Origin: a bacterium
GTDB taxonomy: Bacteria; Orphanbacterota; Orphanbacteria; Orphanbacterales; Orphanbacteraceae
Reading direction: 5' to 3'
DNA length: 64,000 nucleotides
NCBI GenBank assembly: GCA_025782575.1
Contig: JALGYY010000043.1
Coordinates: 73,501-137,500, forward strand
In this document: positions 1-6,050 of the stretch, piece after piece
Layout: each line of letters opens with the position of its first letter
Numbering within the stretch: the stretch's first letter is position 1
Notes under the pieces: generated by a model
What the model saw: only the letters and a program-made list of their open reading frames with translations
Database searches by the model: none
What the model was told of the DNA's origin: nothing
Position numbers and translations under genes: made by a program

Positions 1-47
1 AGTATGAGAACGATAGATCGAGCTCGTGCGCAGACACTTCCGGTCAT
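1..47 (-). CDS. 5' end of a gene cut off by the window edge, unknown product
   Basis: An ATG at 47 reads leftward off the window and gives only the first residues, MTGSVCARARSIVLI. A textbook Shine-Dalgarno (AAAGGAGGT, 53-61) sits five bases upstream, the best in the window, so a real start is likely. It is the first gene downstream of the giant kinase/sigma54 activator (404-5548), and the gap carries a candidate sigma54 promoter and three palindromes, so it is the expected target of that regulator (inference). The peptide is too short to assign a family. Confidence 0.55.
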   Translation of the reverse strand, partial: MTGSVCARARSIVLI

Positions 48-89
48 GGTTGACCTCCTTTGTGTGGTTGGACGATTACGGCATTCAAT

Positions 90-105
90 TGCAATGACCG
101 TGCGA
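90..105 (-). promoter_or_regulatory. candidate sigma54 (-24/-12) promoter
   Basis: On the minus strand the sequence is TCGCAC-GGTCA-TTGCA. The sigma54 consensus is TGGCAC-N5-TTGC[A/T], so there is one mismatch (first G of the -24 GG) and the spacing is exact. It predicts a transcript start near 79 and a 32-base leader containing the strong ribosome-binding site of the gene that starts at 47. The neighbouring gene encodes a sigma54 activator, which raises the prior. Not experimentally shown. Confidence 0.5.
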
Positions 106-191
106 GCCGCCCCAAAAAGCGGCATAGTAACCCATTGATATTTACTATCTTACGACATTTCTAAAGTGATAATAGCACAAGAGAAGAGAAT

Positions 192-207
192 TCGTACTTT
201 TGTACGA
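192..207. promoter_or_regulatory. palindromic operator-like site A
   Basis: TCGTAC-TTTT-GTACGA; the perfect arms extend outward to nine bases (189-210). It lies about 120 bases upstream of the predicted sigma54 start site. Fis-type HTH domains of sigma54 activators bind inverted repeats of about this size (family knowledge); the assignment to the adjacent activator is inference. Confidence 0.6.
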
Positions 208-295
208 ATTCCGAATCAGAGTTGAGAGAGGGGATAGGATCCTAACTGATTATATTTAATAAAGTTAAGATCATTCGATCGGGAGATTCACTTAG

Positions 296-311
296 TCGTA
301 CATTTGTACGA
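296..311. promoter_or_regulatory. palindromic operator-like site B
   Basis: TCGTAC-ATTT-GTACGA, same arms as sites A and C. Its centre is 104 bases (about ten helical turns) from site A and 21 bases (two turns) from site C, so all three would lie on about the same face of the helix. Confidence 0.6.
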
Positions 312-316
312 TCAAT

Positions 317-332
317 TCGTACATTCGTACGA
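317..332. promoter_or_regulatory. palindromic operator-like site C
   Basis: TCGTAC-ATTC-GTACGA, perfect six-base arms. Paired with site B at two helical turns, a spacing typical of cooperative activator binding. Confidence 0.6.
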
Positions 333-403
333 TCACGCACAATTCCCTGAAATCACAGAATATCACTCAGCAGGGCCACTCTCTGATAGGTGAAAACCCT
401 TAA

Positions 404-3400
404 TCAGGAGCGATTGGGATCACGGTCGAGACCGTACTTACGCATCTTCTTTCGGATAGTCGCTTCATGAATGCCAAGCAGTCGGGCGGTCAGGGATTGA
501 TTCCAGCTTGTCCTGCTGAGTGCGTTCTGGAGGAGCTGCCCCTCGAACTGCGCGACCGCTTCCGGGAGCGTGAGGCCTCTCCCTTTCCGAGCTCCGTCCG
601 CATTGATAACCCATGCCTCGCGAACCGTATCGGGGAGATCGACCAGCTCGATCCGGGAGCCGCCACAAACGACAACAGCGCGCTCAATCGCATTCGCCAG
701 CTCCCGTACATTCCCCGGCCAGTCGTAGACTCGCAGGCATCGGATCACCTCGTCTGACAAGGCGTCCACTCTTTTGTCGTTCTGACGGGAATAGAGGTCG
801 AGAAAGTGCCTGGCCAGCAGGTCCACATCTTCAATCCGGCGATTGAGAGGAGGTACTTCAATAGTAAAACGGGCGAGCCGGTAATAGAGATCCTCTCTGA
901 ACTGATTCTTCGCGATTCTCATCTTCAGGTTCCATCGGGTCGCCGCGATGATCCTGACGTCCACGCGTATTGTCTGTGTGCTCCCCAGTCTCTGGAACTC
1001 CCCCTCCTGCAGGACACGCAGAAGCTTCGGCTGCGCGGCAAGAGGAAGATCTCCGATCTCATCCAGGAAGAGTGTGCCGCCATCCAGCTTTTCGAAGTAG
1101 CCGATCTTTCTTTCTTTTGCGTCCGTGAACGCACCGGGCTCATGTCCGAACAGATGAGACTCAATCAACTCCGTCGGCAGAGCCGCGATATTCAGTTTAT
1201 CGAACGGAGTCTCGCTCCGTGCGCTTTTCTCATGAATCAGACGAGCCACGAGTTCCTTCCCCGTTCCCGTCTCCCCTTCGATCAGGACCGAAATATCGCT
1301 CGTTGCCGCCCGAATCGATTTTTCCACCACGCTATTGATCGCCGCGCTCCGCCCGACGATCTCTCCGGGCTTCGTTCCGGAAGTGACCTCCCGCCGAAGA
1401 TCGGCGTTCTCCTGCTCCAGGTCTTCCATCAAGCGAGCGTTCTTGATAGCAAGAGTGGTCTGATCGGCCAGTGCGCGAAGAAAGAGTTTATCCGGTTCGT
1501 GAAATACACCCGCACGGTGACAATTGTCCAGATAGATCACACCGATCGGTTCACCCCTGAATTGAAGCGGCGCGGTGATCACAGACAAAATATTATAGGC
1601 ATCAATACTTTTTGTCTTCTTCAAACGACGATCGGTCCCCGTGTCGTCGAAGACGATCGGGACAGATGATCGCTGGGACTCGAGAAGAAGGGTCTTGCTG
1701 AATCGAGTGACGTCATCGAGATCTCCCCCCTCCAGAGACCGGGCTACCTTCATTTCGAGGCCACCGTCGGCAGTCTGCAGCAGGATAAGCCCGCGGTCCG
1801 CCCCCAGATACTCCACGGCCTTGTCCAGAACGAATTCCAGAATCTTCTGAGAATCACGAAGCGTATTGATCCCCTCCGCAATCCGGCAGATCAAGCGGAA
1901 TGCCTCCCCCATCCCATCGGACTGGGGCGAAACGGCCGCGATCAGTTCAGGCAGGAAAGCAGGAGGAGAGGCGTATCTCACAAGCCCGTAGAGCCGCTTC
2001 GCTTCTTCGATGTGACGCTTGGCCTTCCGCCGTTCTCCCCGGCGGAGGGAGACCGCCCCATAGTAGGAATGGGCGAGAGCGCGATCAATCCGCGCACCGA
2101 GCTTGGTAAAGATCCGGACAGCATTCTGAAAATGCCGGGCCTCCGCCTCGTTCCGCCGTTTGCCGTCACAGGCGCGGCCGTGAAGCATCGCCAGCCTGCC
2201 GCTCAGGAGGGGATTACGCTGTCGCTTGGCGAGTCGATCAAGCTCATCGAGTTTTTCCCGAGCCTCCCCGCTCCTGTTCCGGTTGAGAGCGCTTTCCGCT
2301 TGAAGGAGAAGAATTTCAGCCATGTTGATCTTCTCCTCCCCCTCCCTCGCAATCTCCATGGCACGGCCAAGAGTCTCCTCCACTTCATGCCACTGGCGGT
2401 TCAACTGGTGATAGCGTCCGAGTTGAATGAGCGCGTAGCCCTTCAGCCGGTCACCGGGAGCTGAATCCGCAATCGCCTTCCCTTCGGAGAGTACGTCGTG
2501 AGCCGACTGCATCTCGCCGCGCGCCATATGACAACGGGCGAGTACCATCAGCCCGCCGAACCGGATCTGAGGATGGGCACCGGCGCGATTCGCCTCGATC
2601 ACCGCGCGATCCGCCAGACGAAGCGCCTCGTCGAGTCGCCCGCGATCGATCGCCATCTGGCTCCGGCCGATATAGACTCGAAGACTTCTGCTCTCTTCCC
2701 CATACTCCCGGTAGGTCCTCTCGGCCTGCGTGAAAGCACGTTCGGCATCCCCCCATTCGCCAAGCCGATGAAGAAGACCCGCAAGATCCTCCTGGATTCT
2801 CCCCTCTTCAAGTATATCGCTCGATTGTGCAGCCAGGCCGGACGCCTTCCGAAGAAGAGCCGCCGCCTTGTCGAGATTATCGCGGGACCGGGCGATCAGG
2901 GCGAGATTCGAAAGCGGAGAAGGCGTTTCAGATGGGTGGCTTTTTTCCAGCGCTCGGAGAGACCGACGAAAACAACTCTCCGCGTTCTTCAGCTCTCCCC
3001 GCAGGAACAGGGCACCTCCCATGCGATTGTAGATCTGCCCTCGGAGGAGGGGCTCTTTCTTTCCTTTCAGAAGAGCGAGAGCCCGTTCGAGATCCCTCCA
3101 CGCCTCTTCATAGTTTCCGCTGCGCATGACGACCCAGCTCCGATCACGGAGAACAGTGGCCCACTCACTTGCAGGAACCGCCGTTTCATGCCTTCTCAAT
3201 CGACTGAAAATCCGCTCCGCATCCTGGACTCGCCCCATCTGAAAGAGAATCCAACCTCGCAGGCGTTCTCCACGCACGAGAAAGGTGATCTCTCTTTGAC
3301 GACCGGCCAGCTTGAGGGCGAGCAAACGGAGAGCGGCAAGGGCCGCCCGGGACTCACCGATCCGATTGCGGACGAGTGCCAGGCGATAAAGAACCAGGCT

Positions 3401-5548
3401 GTGCGCGTGAGTCGGGATTCGACCCTGCCCGAGCCGAATCACCCTTCGATAAACATCGGCCGCGTCGGAAAATGCGTAAAGCTCTTCGAACTCCTGAGCA
3501 CCCTCAATGTACTTCTGGCATGCGGAGGCAATGGAGCCGACTTTTTCCAGGTGGTGCGCGGTGACCATAAGGGCACCGGGAACACCTTTCCTCTCTCCTT
3601 CCCGAGATAGCCGGGAAGCCAGCTTATGGATTCGTGTGAGTTCATCCTGCGAGACGGCACCCGTCAGGCCGGCGCGAATCTCTTCTGACCTCGGGAGGAA
3701 GACGTCCCCCTCGTTCCCGCTTTCGATTGATACCAGCAGCCGGTCTACGAGGGGTCGGATCGCCCTTGTCCAATCCATATCGGAGATCTTGAGAAGCCGG
3801 CGTAGATGGGGTCCTGTAACCGGCGCGGGGGCCGATGCGATCGCCGCTGCGAGCAGCCTCTCCGTAGGATCGAGTTCGCCCAGAGGAATCGAACGATTCT
3901 CGTCTGTAATCGGCGGAGTATCCTCCACCTTTTTAGAGAGCGAAAATGTGTCATAGCGACGACGAATTGCCCCGCGCTTCACCCACTCATGAACGAGAAG
4001 AGACAGTCGGGAAGGGAGGCGGCCGGAGATCCGGGACGCCTGCCGAATCAATTCCGGGCTGAACTCACCCGGCCCGAGCATCCCTCGGAGATACTGATAA
4101 ACCTCTTCTTCGCTGAATCGGGAGAGAGGAGCGATCTGCACGAGCCCGCGCAAGTGGAACGGCTCGAGTACGCTTGGGATCGCCCCGTTCTCCGGACGGA
4201 GGGTCGAAAGAACCAACCGGAGCGGTCCCGGCCTTTCCCTGTCCAATAGAAAGCGAAGAAATCGGCGAGAGGAACGATCGAGATGCTCATAGTCATCGAC
4301 AATGAGAAGGGCGGGGCGATCGGATCTGTCGCCGGCATCGGCAAGGATCTTGAGAAGCGAGTCTTCAATGTTGCGGAACAGGGCGACTTCCTCGCCTCGT
4401 GTACCCCGCTTTTCTTCACTGACCTCCCCCCCGTGGGGGAGAAAACAACGCACATCCCAACTCGACACCCCGTCGGTCAGCATGTTTACCAGGAGACTGA
4501 GGCCACCATAGGGCCGACTTTCCCGTGATGCGGGAACGGCAAGGGCATAAACCGTCGAGCCCGCGAGCCGCTCGGTCGTCGCGAGCAACTGGAGCAGGCG
4601 ACTCCGTCCGGAACCACGCTCCCCCGTCACTGCGAAGACGGGCGAAGCTGCTTCCTGGCGCCAGGCATCGAACTGTTCAATTACAGATTCCCGCCCGACG
4701 AAATGGGGTGCCGGCGGGACCGCGACTCTCCGGCGCCGCCACTCCTTCCCGGTCAGATCGCTGAGCACGTCGATCGCGCTTTGCGGACGGTCAGCCGGGC
4801 TCTTCTGCAGCATTTTCTCGATCGTCAACCACCAGAGTTTCGGGACGTCCTTCGGGACATCTTCCCAATCGGGGATTTCGTCAAGGTGGCGGCGGGCGAT
4901 CTCCGTGGCCTCCCCGGTAAAGGGTACAGAGCCCCGCAGAAACTCGTAAAATGTGATCCCGAGTGAGTAGAGGTCTGTACGATGATCGGCGCTCTGTCCG
5001 CGAATCGTCTCCGGCGCCATGTACTCGAGTGTCCCGGTGATCGTGCCGAACCGATCGGCCTTCCCGAAAAGGGGTGGCAGGAAATCAGTCAACTGAAGCT
5101 CGAGGATTTCCTCCCCCTCTGCCTGAAAGAGAATATTCTCCGGCTTGATATCGCCGTGCAGGAACCCACGCTCATGAAGAAACGCCACCGCCTCACAGAG
5201 CTTCTCGGCTACCGGTAGAAAACGGCGGACCGGATCAGCGGATACCCATTCTTCTATTCGTTGACTATCCACGTATGGAGATGATGCATAGAGCACACCC
5301 TCAGGTGTTTGCCCGCACTCCAGAATGGGTGATATGCCCGGATGCTGTAACTGACTCCGAAGAACGGACTCCTCTCGGAATCGGTTTTTCATCCGCTCCG
5401 GCGCATGGCGGGAAATCAGTTTGAGTACGACCTGCCGCTCAGGATCGTCCCTTCGGCTGGCCACGACCACGACACGGTGATCCCCCTCAGCGAGCAGATC
5501 GCCCATCTTGTATGATCGGGGGGGGGTGGGTCGCGATCGAACTCCCAT
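404..5548 (-). CDS. hybrid Ser/Thr kinase - AAA ATPase - TPR - GAF - sigma54 activator - Fis HTH regulator
   Basis: A 1714-aa regulator. Domains in order: protein kinase (about 12-270; VVLK lysine 43, catalytic loop HGDIKPEN 131-138, DFL in place of DFG 155-157); PknK/MalT-like AAA ATPase (about 283-520; P-loop GERGSGRS 309-316 with Arg for the usual Lys, Walker B LLIVDD 414-419); TPR repeats (about 650-1190); GAF (about 1216-1375); sigma54-activator AAA+ (1397-1630; Walker A GETGTGKE 1425-1432, GAFTDA 1472-1477 in place of GAFTGA, Walker B GTLFLDE around 1491); Fis-type HTH (about 1659-1708). It should sense a small ligand or cytosolic state and drive open-complex formation by sigma54 polymerase at nearby promoters. 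The HGD, DFL, GxxGxGRS and GAFTDA variants mean the kinase or first ATPase may be weak or structural. The likely target starts at 47. Confidence 0.92.
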   Translation of the reverse strand: MGVRSRPTPPRSYKMGDLLAEGDHRVVVVASRRDDPERQVVLKLISRHAPERMKNRFREESVLRSQLQHPGISPILECGQTPEGVLYASSPYVDSQRIEEWVSADPVRRFLPVAEKLCEAVAFLHERGFLHGDIKPENILFQAEGEEILELQLTDFLPPLFGKADRFGTITGTLEYMAPETIRGQSADHRTDLYSLGITFYEFLRGSVPFTGEATEIARRHLDEIPDWEDVPKDVPKLWWLTIEKMLQKSPADRPQSAIDVLSDLTGKEWRRRRVAVPPAPHFVGRESVIEQFDAWRQEAASPVFAVTGERGSGRSRLLQLLATTERLAGSTVYALAVPASRESRPYGGLSLLVNMLTDGVSSWDVRCFLPHGGEVSEEKRGTRGEEVALFRNIEDSLLKILADAGDRSDRPALLIVDDYEHLDRSSRRFLRFLLDRERPGPLRLVLSTLRPENGAIPSVLEPFHLRGLVQIAPLSRFSEEEVYQYLRGMLGPGEFSPELIRQASRISGRLPSRLSLLVHEWVKRGAIRRRYDTFSLSKKVEDTPPITDENRSIPLGELDPTERLLAAAIASAPAPVTGPHLRRLLKISDMDWTRAIRPLVDRLLVSIESGNEGDVFLPRSEEIRAGLTGAVSQDELTRIHKLASRLSREGERKGVPGALMVTAHHLEKVGSIASACQKYIEGAQEFEELYAFSDAADVYRRVIRLGQGRIPTHAHSLVLYRLALVRNRIGESRAALAALRLLALKLAGRQREITFLVRGERLRGWILFQMGRVQDAERIFSRLRRHETAVPASEWATVLRDRSWVVMRSGNYEEAWRDLERALALLKGKKEPLLRGQIYNRMGGALFLRGELKNAESCFRRSLRALEKSHPSETPSPLSNLALIARSRDNLDKAAALLRKASGLAAQSSDILEEGRIQEDLAGLLHRLGEWGDAERAFTQAERTYREYGEESRSLRVYIGRSQMAIDRGRLDEALRLADRAVIEANRAGAHPQIRFGGLMVLARCHMARGEMQSAHDVLSEGKAIADSAPGDRLKGYALIQLGRYHQLNRQWHEVEETLGRAMEIAREGEEKINMAEILLLQAESALNRNRSGEAREKLDELDRLAKRQRNPLLSGRLAMLHGRACDGKRRNEAEARHFQNAVRIFTKLGARIDRALAHSYYGAVSLRRGERRKAKRHIEEAKRLYGLVRYASPPAFLPELIAAVSPQSDGMGEAFRLICRIAEGINTLRDSQKILEFVLDKAVEYLGADRGLILLQTADGGLEMKVARSLEGGDLDDVTRFSKTLLLESQRSSVPIVFDDTGTDRRLKKTKSIDAYNILSVITAPLQFRGEPIGVIYLDNCHRAGVFHEPDKLFLRALADQTTLAIKNARLMEDLEQENADLRREVTSGTKPGEIVGRSAAINSVVEKSIRAATSDISVLIEGETGTGKELVARLIHEKSARSETPFDKLNIAALPTELIESHLFGHEPGAFTDAKERKIGYFEKLDGGTLFLDEIGDLPLAAQPKLLRVLQEGEFQRLGSTQTIRVDVRIIAATRWNLKMRIAKNQFREDLYYRLARFTIEVPPLNRRIEDVDLLARHFLDLYSRQNDKRVDALSDEVIRCLRVYDWPGNVRELANAIERAVVVCGGSRIELVDLPDTVREAWVINADGARKGRGLTLPEAVAQFEGQLLQNALSRTSWNQSLTARLLGIHEATIRKKMRKYGLDRDPNRS

Positions 5549-5646: not shown

Positions 5647-5979
5647 TCACGCGAGAATCTTATCGACCTTGTCCGTGATGTCCTTCTTTGGAGCCGCGCC
5701 GACCACGGTGTCCACCACTTCCCCCTTGTGGAAGAATAGAAGTGTGGGGATGCTCCGTATCCCGTAGCTGCTCGCAATATTAGGATTTGAATCCACATCT
5801 ACTTTCGCCACCAGCATTTTCCCGCCATACTCCCCGGCCACTTCCTCAAGAACCGGTGTGATCCTCTTGCAGGGGCCACACCATTCGGCCCAGAAGTCGG
5901 CGATTACAGGAACGTCGGCAGAAACGACTTTTTCCTGAAAGTCAGCGTCAGTTACGTCTATGACATGCTCTGAAGCCAT
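5647..5979 (-). CDS. trxA: thioredoxin
   Basis: Cytoplasmic disulfide reductase of 110 aa, the normal family length. The active site is WCGPCK and the conserved cis-Pro loop is SIPT. The start at 5979 is chosen over the upstream in-frame codon because AAAGGAGATC lies just before it and the protein then begins at the family N-terminus. It is transcribed alone: a consensus-like sigma70 promoter lies at 6051-6079 and a terminator at 5583-5614. Confidence 0.97.
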   Translation of the reverse strand: MASEHVIDVTDADFQEKVVSADVPVIADFWAEWCGPCKRITPVLEEVAGEYGGKMLVAKVDVDSNPNIASSYGIRSIPTLLFFHKGEVVDTVVGAAPKKDITDKVDKILA

Positions 5980-6011
5980 GCGTCTTGATCTCCTTTCAAA
6001 ATGAAATAGTC

Positions 6012-6036
6012 GCGGATCCTCCCGGGGGAGGTCCGC
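6012..6036 (-). terminator. hairpin in the trxA leader / end of the PAP2 gene
   Basis: GC-rich stem (GCGGA and CCTCCC pairing with GGGAGG and TCCGC) between the PAP2 gene and trxA. It is followed on the minus strand by ACTATTTCATTTT, not a clean T-run. It could terminate read-through from the PAP2 gene. Because it lies downstream of the predicted trxA promoter it would also sit at the very start of the trxA mRNA. Confidence 0.45.
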
Positions 6037-6050
6037 CACGCTCTTATAAG

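Follow-up and report, generated by a model that had tools for sequence, protein, structure and literature searches.

The 64-kb window (the whole stretch of DNA analyzed here, positions 73501-137500 of contig C46 in genome G000) carries what appears to be a genuine regulatory module, so far undescribed, and not a product of chance, in which the gene for a putative multidomain sigma54 activator is followed by three palindromes, a -24/-12-type promoter box and the gene for a small exported-type protein (Table 1). We take it to be real because related uncultured bacteria have the same layout of parts, as does a second lineage unrelated to them. The initial annotation had read the region as a self-contained sigma54 switch, and this reading is largely supported by the comparisons below: the palindromes, the box spacing, the presence of rpoN and the recurrence in the second phylum agree with it, and the base at position -25 of the box and the apparent loss of the sigma54 link in one genus qualify it.

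Table 1. Features of the activator locus (window coordinates unless another frame is given)
Feature	Position	Strand	Description
Thioredoxin-like gene	5647-6039	(-)
Activator ORF	404-5548	(-)	1714 aa; starts at 5548, ends at 404
Activator Ser/Thr kinase	aa 21-256		Pfam hmmscan
Activator AAA_16	aa 283-446		Pfam hmmscan; TPR region follows
Activator GAF	aa 1234-1368		Pfam hmmscan
Activator sigma54 AAA+	aa 1397-1564		Pfam hmmscan; loop GAFTDA; AAA lid follows
Activator Fis-type HTH_8	aa 1665-1705		Pfam hmmscan; recognition region GIHEATIRKK
Palindrome 1, distal	317-332		TCGTAC-ATTC-GTACGA, TCGTACATTCGTACGA; center 233.5 bp from C-12
Palindrome 2	296-311		TCGTAC-ATTT-GTACGA, TCGTACATTTGTACGA; center 212.5 bp from C-12
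Palindrome 3, proximal	192-207		TCGTAC-TTTT-GTACGA, TCGTACTTTTGTACGA; center 108.5 bp from C-12
-24/-12-type box	90-105	(-)	TCGCACGGTCATTGCA, TCGCACG-GTCA-TTGCA; C-12 at 91
Predicted transcription start	near 79	(-)	from the -24/-12-type box
Ribosome-binding site	53-60	(-)	AAGGAGGT, ahead of ATG; from sequence
Target gene start	1-47 in window	(-)	ATG at 45-47
Target gene, whole	L002 9808-10047	(-)	79 aa; window position = L002 position minus 10000

Pfam hmmscan gave the domain order of the activator as Ser/Thr kinase, AAA_16, TPR, GAF, sigma54 AAA+, AAA lid and Fis-type HTH_8, with E values of 2.9e-67 for the Sigma54_activat (PF00158) match and 9.8e-12 for HTH_8. The AAA+ domain has the three hallmarks of a sigma54 enhancer-binding protein, namely Walker A (GETGTGKE), Walker B (LFLDEIG) and the sigma54 contact loop, and the C-terminal HTH is accompanied by upstream sites that appear to track its recognition helix (below). 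The GAFTDA form of the loop is, with GAFSGA, listed as activation-compatible in Desulfovibrio vulgaris, where a GVATGV loop was also judged probably functional (PMC4641369). The kinase and AAA+ activities are probably both intact, since the kinase catalytic residues (K43, D133, K135 and D155) and the Walker A/B residues (K1431, D1496 and E1497) are invariant in an alignment of eight homologues; the kinase has DFL in place of DFG. The sigma factor on which the initial annotation had made its reading depend is encoded in this genome, where rpoN (PF04552, E=8.1e-62) has an intact RpoN box (ARRTVAKYR), and rpoN was found in all seven same-phylum genomes examined. The activator gene is directly preceded by the thioredoxin-like gene on the same strand, with which it might be co-transcribed. 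A defence role for the activator was also considered, but its PADLOC matches are to a generic kinase and AAA only and were not counted as evidence.

The three palindromes that had been described after the activator gene are there, and each is a perfect TCGTAC-N4-GTACGA. Palindromes 1 and 2 are 21 bp apart center to center, and successive copies are separated by nearly integral numbers of helical turns (21 and 104 bp here, 63-64 bp in G005 and G006); the arms of palindrome 3 extend to GAATTC..GAATTC (188-211). The pattern TCGTAY-N4-RTACGA has four matches in the 4.88-Mb genome, three of them at this locus, and the reversed control pattern has none; a genome-wide search with the longer motif, allowing up to two mismatches, found mostly scattered near-misses elsewhere, and the palindromes are essentially confined to the activator locus. 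When the intergenic region was shuffled 20,000 times (first-order), only 1 shuffle contained even one perfect copy. Contig C94 of G006 has an extra TCGTAC-N4-GTACGA pair (locus L080, 7353-7368 and 7486-7501, 133 bp apart) upstream of genes for two secreted-type proteins, one Cys-rich and the other 950 aa long, with a GGGCATGAATCCTGC site about 100 bp away, and this pair is a possible second target of the activator.

The -24/-12 box said to precede the gene that starts at 47 stands as to its spacing, its GC doublet and 10 of the 11 fixed bases of the consensus, but not as to the first G of the GG doublet. It is the sole site in the 64 kb with one mismatch or none to TGGCACN5TTGCW, and as good a match was obtained in 3 of 5000 first-order intergenic shuffles. 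Compared with the sigma54 consensus TGGCAC-N5-TTGC, the box has C at -25, usually a strongly conserved position, and the same replacement is found in all four boxes known from its own phylum (CGCACG in G000, G003, G005 and G006). We regard this C as the main weakness of the assignment because the canonical TGGCAC form is overrepresented in the vicinity of the phylum's other activators (19 sites versus 5 in the reversed control). One explanation for the non-canonical base would be a weak promoter that is tightly dependent on the activator.

The target gene was cut by the window edge, and leftward extension of the contig, as the initial annotation had proposed, completes it: it encodes a 79-aa protein (MTGSVCARARSIVLILTLTLILAVFPVGLRG...SQSEPEDPGFPHP) with the C-terminus DPGFPHP, and it adjoins the TPR-containing regulator gene. 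The protein has a basic N-terminus, a hydrophobic stretch of ~20 residues and a Gly/Ser/acidic tail, and is called exported-type here on the basis of hydrophobicity alone; no Pfam or NCBIfam family model matched it at a credible score. The second ORF (205 aa) matches Sigma54_activ_2 (E=6.1e-7) and is a truncated AAA+ fragment that has neither GAFTGA nor HTH and retains neither the Walker A lysine nor the Asp-Glu pair of Walker B (ILLTGDVASGLR, TIIIEGVDR); its product is predicted to be ATPase-dead. The third ORF (321 aa), whose start overlaps the second by ATGA, gave nothing credible in Pfam, NCBIfam or PDB sequence searches, and is followed by uracil-DNA glycosylase-like and prepilin peptidase-like genes (named by eye). 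The gene after the AAA+ fragment differs among genomes (loci L070, L071 and L074): it encodes a histidine kinase in G003 and a protein with a receiver domain in both G005 and G006, and in G000 and G002 it encodes a 321- or 329-aa protein without assigned family.

Conservation was followed in seven genomes of the phylum, which are MAG data and, being related by descent, are not fully independent. Activator homologues of 34-51% identity are present in G001, G002, G003, G005 and G006 and absent from G004; the G001 contig ends inside the activator gene, which places its downstream flank outside the comparison. The expectation that palindromes and box would be found beside homologues was borne out for the palindromes, which adjoin the activator in every readable flank (G000, G002, G003, G005 and G006), and for the box in four of these five loci; in G002 the box is missing. 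The small exported-type protein gene follows the activator and palindromes in all readable flanks (also G002, G003, G005 and G006), and after it comes a degenerate AAA+ gene (Sigma54_activ_2, E=6e-7). The small proteins are only ~30-36% identical overall, but the C-terminal DPxxPHP keeps its DP and PHP in all of them. At the DNA level the pattern DPxxPHP-stop occurs exactly once in each of these five genomes, always at the activator locus, and it had no match in G004 (without the activator) or G001 (contig end in the activator). The four boxes share the form GCACG-N4-[TC]TGC, lie 43-66 nt ahead of the start codon and have their C-12 at 108.5 (G000), 109.5 (G003), 112.5 (G005) and 112.5 bp (G006) from the nearest palindrome center. 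The background frequency of this form in the phylum's loci is 3.5e-5 per position, a descriptive value because the form was derived from the same sites.

Genus g2 (G001 and G002; loci L089 and L072) differs in that its activators have lost the GAFTGA loop and kept the Walker motifs. In the alignment the G002 loop reads TGGPDG and has a proline in place of the key threonine, and a threonine/proline change at that position inactivates NifA (PMC4641369). Upstream of the G002 small-protein gene neither a -24/-12-type box nor a sigma70-type site was found, and the palindromes and the small-protein gene are still there. It appears that the sigma54 link has been lost in this genus, where another promoter type may possibly have replaced it. 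The broken loop and the missing box point to a correlated loss, which is suggestive only because a single lineage is involved.

More distant homologues were sampled by searching 290 genomes with a profile and extending the search to the phyla to which two of the matches belong, so these genomes were chosen for holding a homologue. In three genomes of a second phylum (G140, G290 and G291) the recognition region is HESTLRKK, the activator loops are KVATGV or RVATGV, and the activator loci have TCGTAY-N4-RTACG palindromes and -24/-12-type boxes (GGGTACGTTTTTTGCC, TGGAACAGGCCTTGCA and AGGTATGTTTCTTGCC), each exactly 121.5 bp from a palindrome center; the boxes had been chosen by best score before this spacing was measured. 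A 70-72-aa exported-type protein is encoded next (with ..FADG..NPGDPEPD.. in two of the three), followed in G140 and G291 by a truncated sigma54 AAA+ ORF that has an intact Walker A and no HTH, a less decayed form; none was recognised in G290. Homologues with other recognition helices (G142, L092 from WOR-3 and L093) have different palindromes, then a box (canonical in G142, otherwise variant) and then a secreted-type protein gene. Genomes with other helices contain zero to two scattered TCGTAC-type sites, none adjoining the activator. No clear palindrome or box was found at the homologue locus of G154, and the three-part layout was not seen at L175 and L177.

From these observations we infer that the operon is most probably transcribed with sigma54 under the control of the activator bound at the palindromes. 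A kinase-AAA_16-TPR-GAF sensor, fused in one protein to a sigma54 AAA+ motor and a Fis HTH, would bind TCGTAY-N4-RTACGA palindromes through its HE[AS]T[IVL]RKK recognition helix and, acting ~120 bp ahead of the transcription start, remodel sigma54-bound RNA polymerase on the -24/-12 box, which would turn on the operon beginning at 47. The predicted products are the 79-aa exported-type acidic DPxxPHP protein and the ATPase-dead AAA+ subunit, together here with the 321-aa protein. The dead subunit might join or cap the activator ring and so exert negative feedback, a role that we suggest tentatively, and the exported protein would work in the envelope. It is rather doubtful that this protein, or a peptide cleaved from it, is a signal or envelope-state reporter for the activator; if it were, the locus would be a sigma54-driven peptide signalling loop with an ATPase-dead AAA+ governor in at least two uncultured phyla.

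Could the activator instead control its target from a sigma70-type promoter, the likeness to a -24/-12 box being incidental? The G at -25 is, after all, missing from every own-phylum box, and the GAFTGA loop is broken in genus g2, as in the Caulobacter NtrC, which lacks GAFTGA and acts at sigma70 promoters (PMC10274813). We nevertheless find this quite unlikely, given that the box-to-palindrome distance varies by no more than 4 bp in one phylum and not at all in the other, that the broken loop coincides with an absent box in G002, that no sigma70-like site was found in window positions 1-420, and that so few shuffles (3 of 5000) matched the box.

It is more improbable still that the palindromes end transcription of the activator gene or serve another regulator as binding sites. 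By its score the proximal palindrome does resemble a terminator, and a weakly T-rich tail follows it, but it is the only one of the three with such a tail. The near-integral helical-turn spacing, the nearly fixed distance to the box, and a palindrome sequence that follows the activator recognition helix in two phyla also speak against this reading. That an ordinary activator merely happens to stand beside an unrelated small ORF is hardly credible, even with a small set of seven own-phylum genomes and MAG data only: gene order, operators and DPxxPHP have persisted although the small protein has diverged elsewhere, which already contradicts chance, and the layout was found again in the second phylum.

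Every part of the unit belongs to a known class. The sigma54 AAA+ core, Walker A/B motifs, GAFTGA-type loop, Fis HTH and upstream palindromes are those of the NtrC/NifA/NorR enhancer-binding proteins, and the GAF adjoins the AAA+ domain as in NifA and NorR (the best NCBIfam profile is NifA, with all NCBIfam equivalog scores among the matches listed below their cut-offs); unlike that class, the activator is longer by ~1200 residues, which make up its Ser/Thr kinase, AAA_16 and TPR parts. This kinase-AAA_16-TPR front half resembles regulators such as the TOMM system kinase/cyclase fusion (TIGR03903), but the output domain is a sigma54 activator and the Pfam scan gave no cyclase domain. TOMM systems have small peptides among their components; the small protein here differs in its export-type N-terminus. 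Membership of TIGR03903 was rejected, as homologues score 88.9 and 275.6 against a cut-off of 705.75. The PEP-CTERM response regulator (TIGR02915) is likewise a sigma54 activator tied to exported proteins, but the score against it is 318.8 (cut-off 502.6) and no PEP-CTERM motif was seen in the small protein. The g2 orthologues without the loop resemble the GAFTGA-less NtrC activators of Caulobacter and Rhodobacter, which act at sigma70 promoters (PMC10274813), whereas the window's activator retains its GAFTDA loop and a -24/-12-type box.

Targeted searches of a library of open-access papers found neither the combination of a kinase-TPR-GAF-sigma54 activator with operator, promoter, small protein and AAA+ fragment, here conserved in two phyla, nor any description of a comparable kinase-TPR-sigma54 fusion. 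Such a unit would place the sigma54 transcription of a tiny exported-type protein under the direct control of a Ser/Thr kinase-TPR-GAF sensor. Its operator, promoter and spacing are all legible in the sequence, and with palindrome, helix and box distance identified, binding and rpoN dependence are therefore testable in vitro without culture. The predicted dead AAA+ fragment, with its constant operon position, would make it possible to test whether an activator ring is controlled in trans.

Two further layouts were observed among the homologues with other helices. Downstream of the G142 activator (locus L153) there are two GTGTAAA..TTTACA palindromes, a canonical TGGCATATCAATTGC box, a gene for an 80-aa exported-type protein and then a 78-aa ORF that resembles the activator's own Fis HTH, and we read this locus as a probable parallel version in which an HTH fragment replaces the AAA+ fragment. 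L092 and L093 keep the three-part layout with other palindromes, and both have a box of the form TGTCATA-N4-TTGCTATA.
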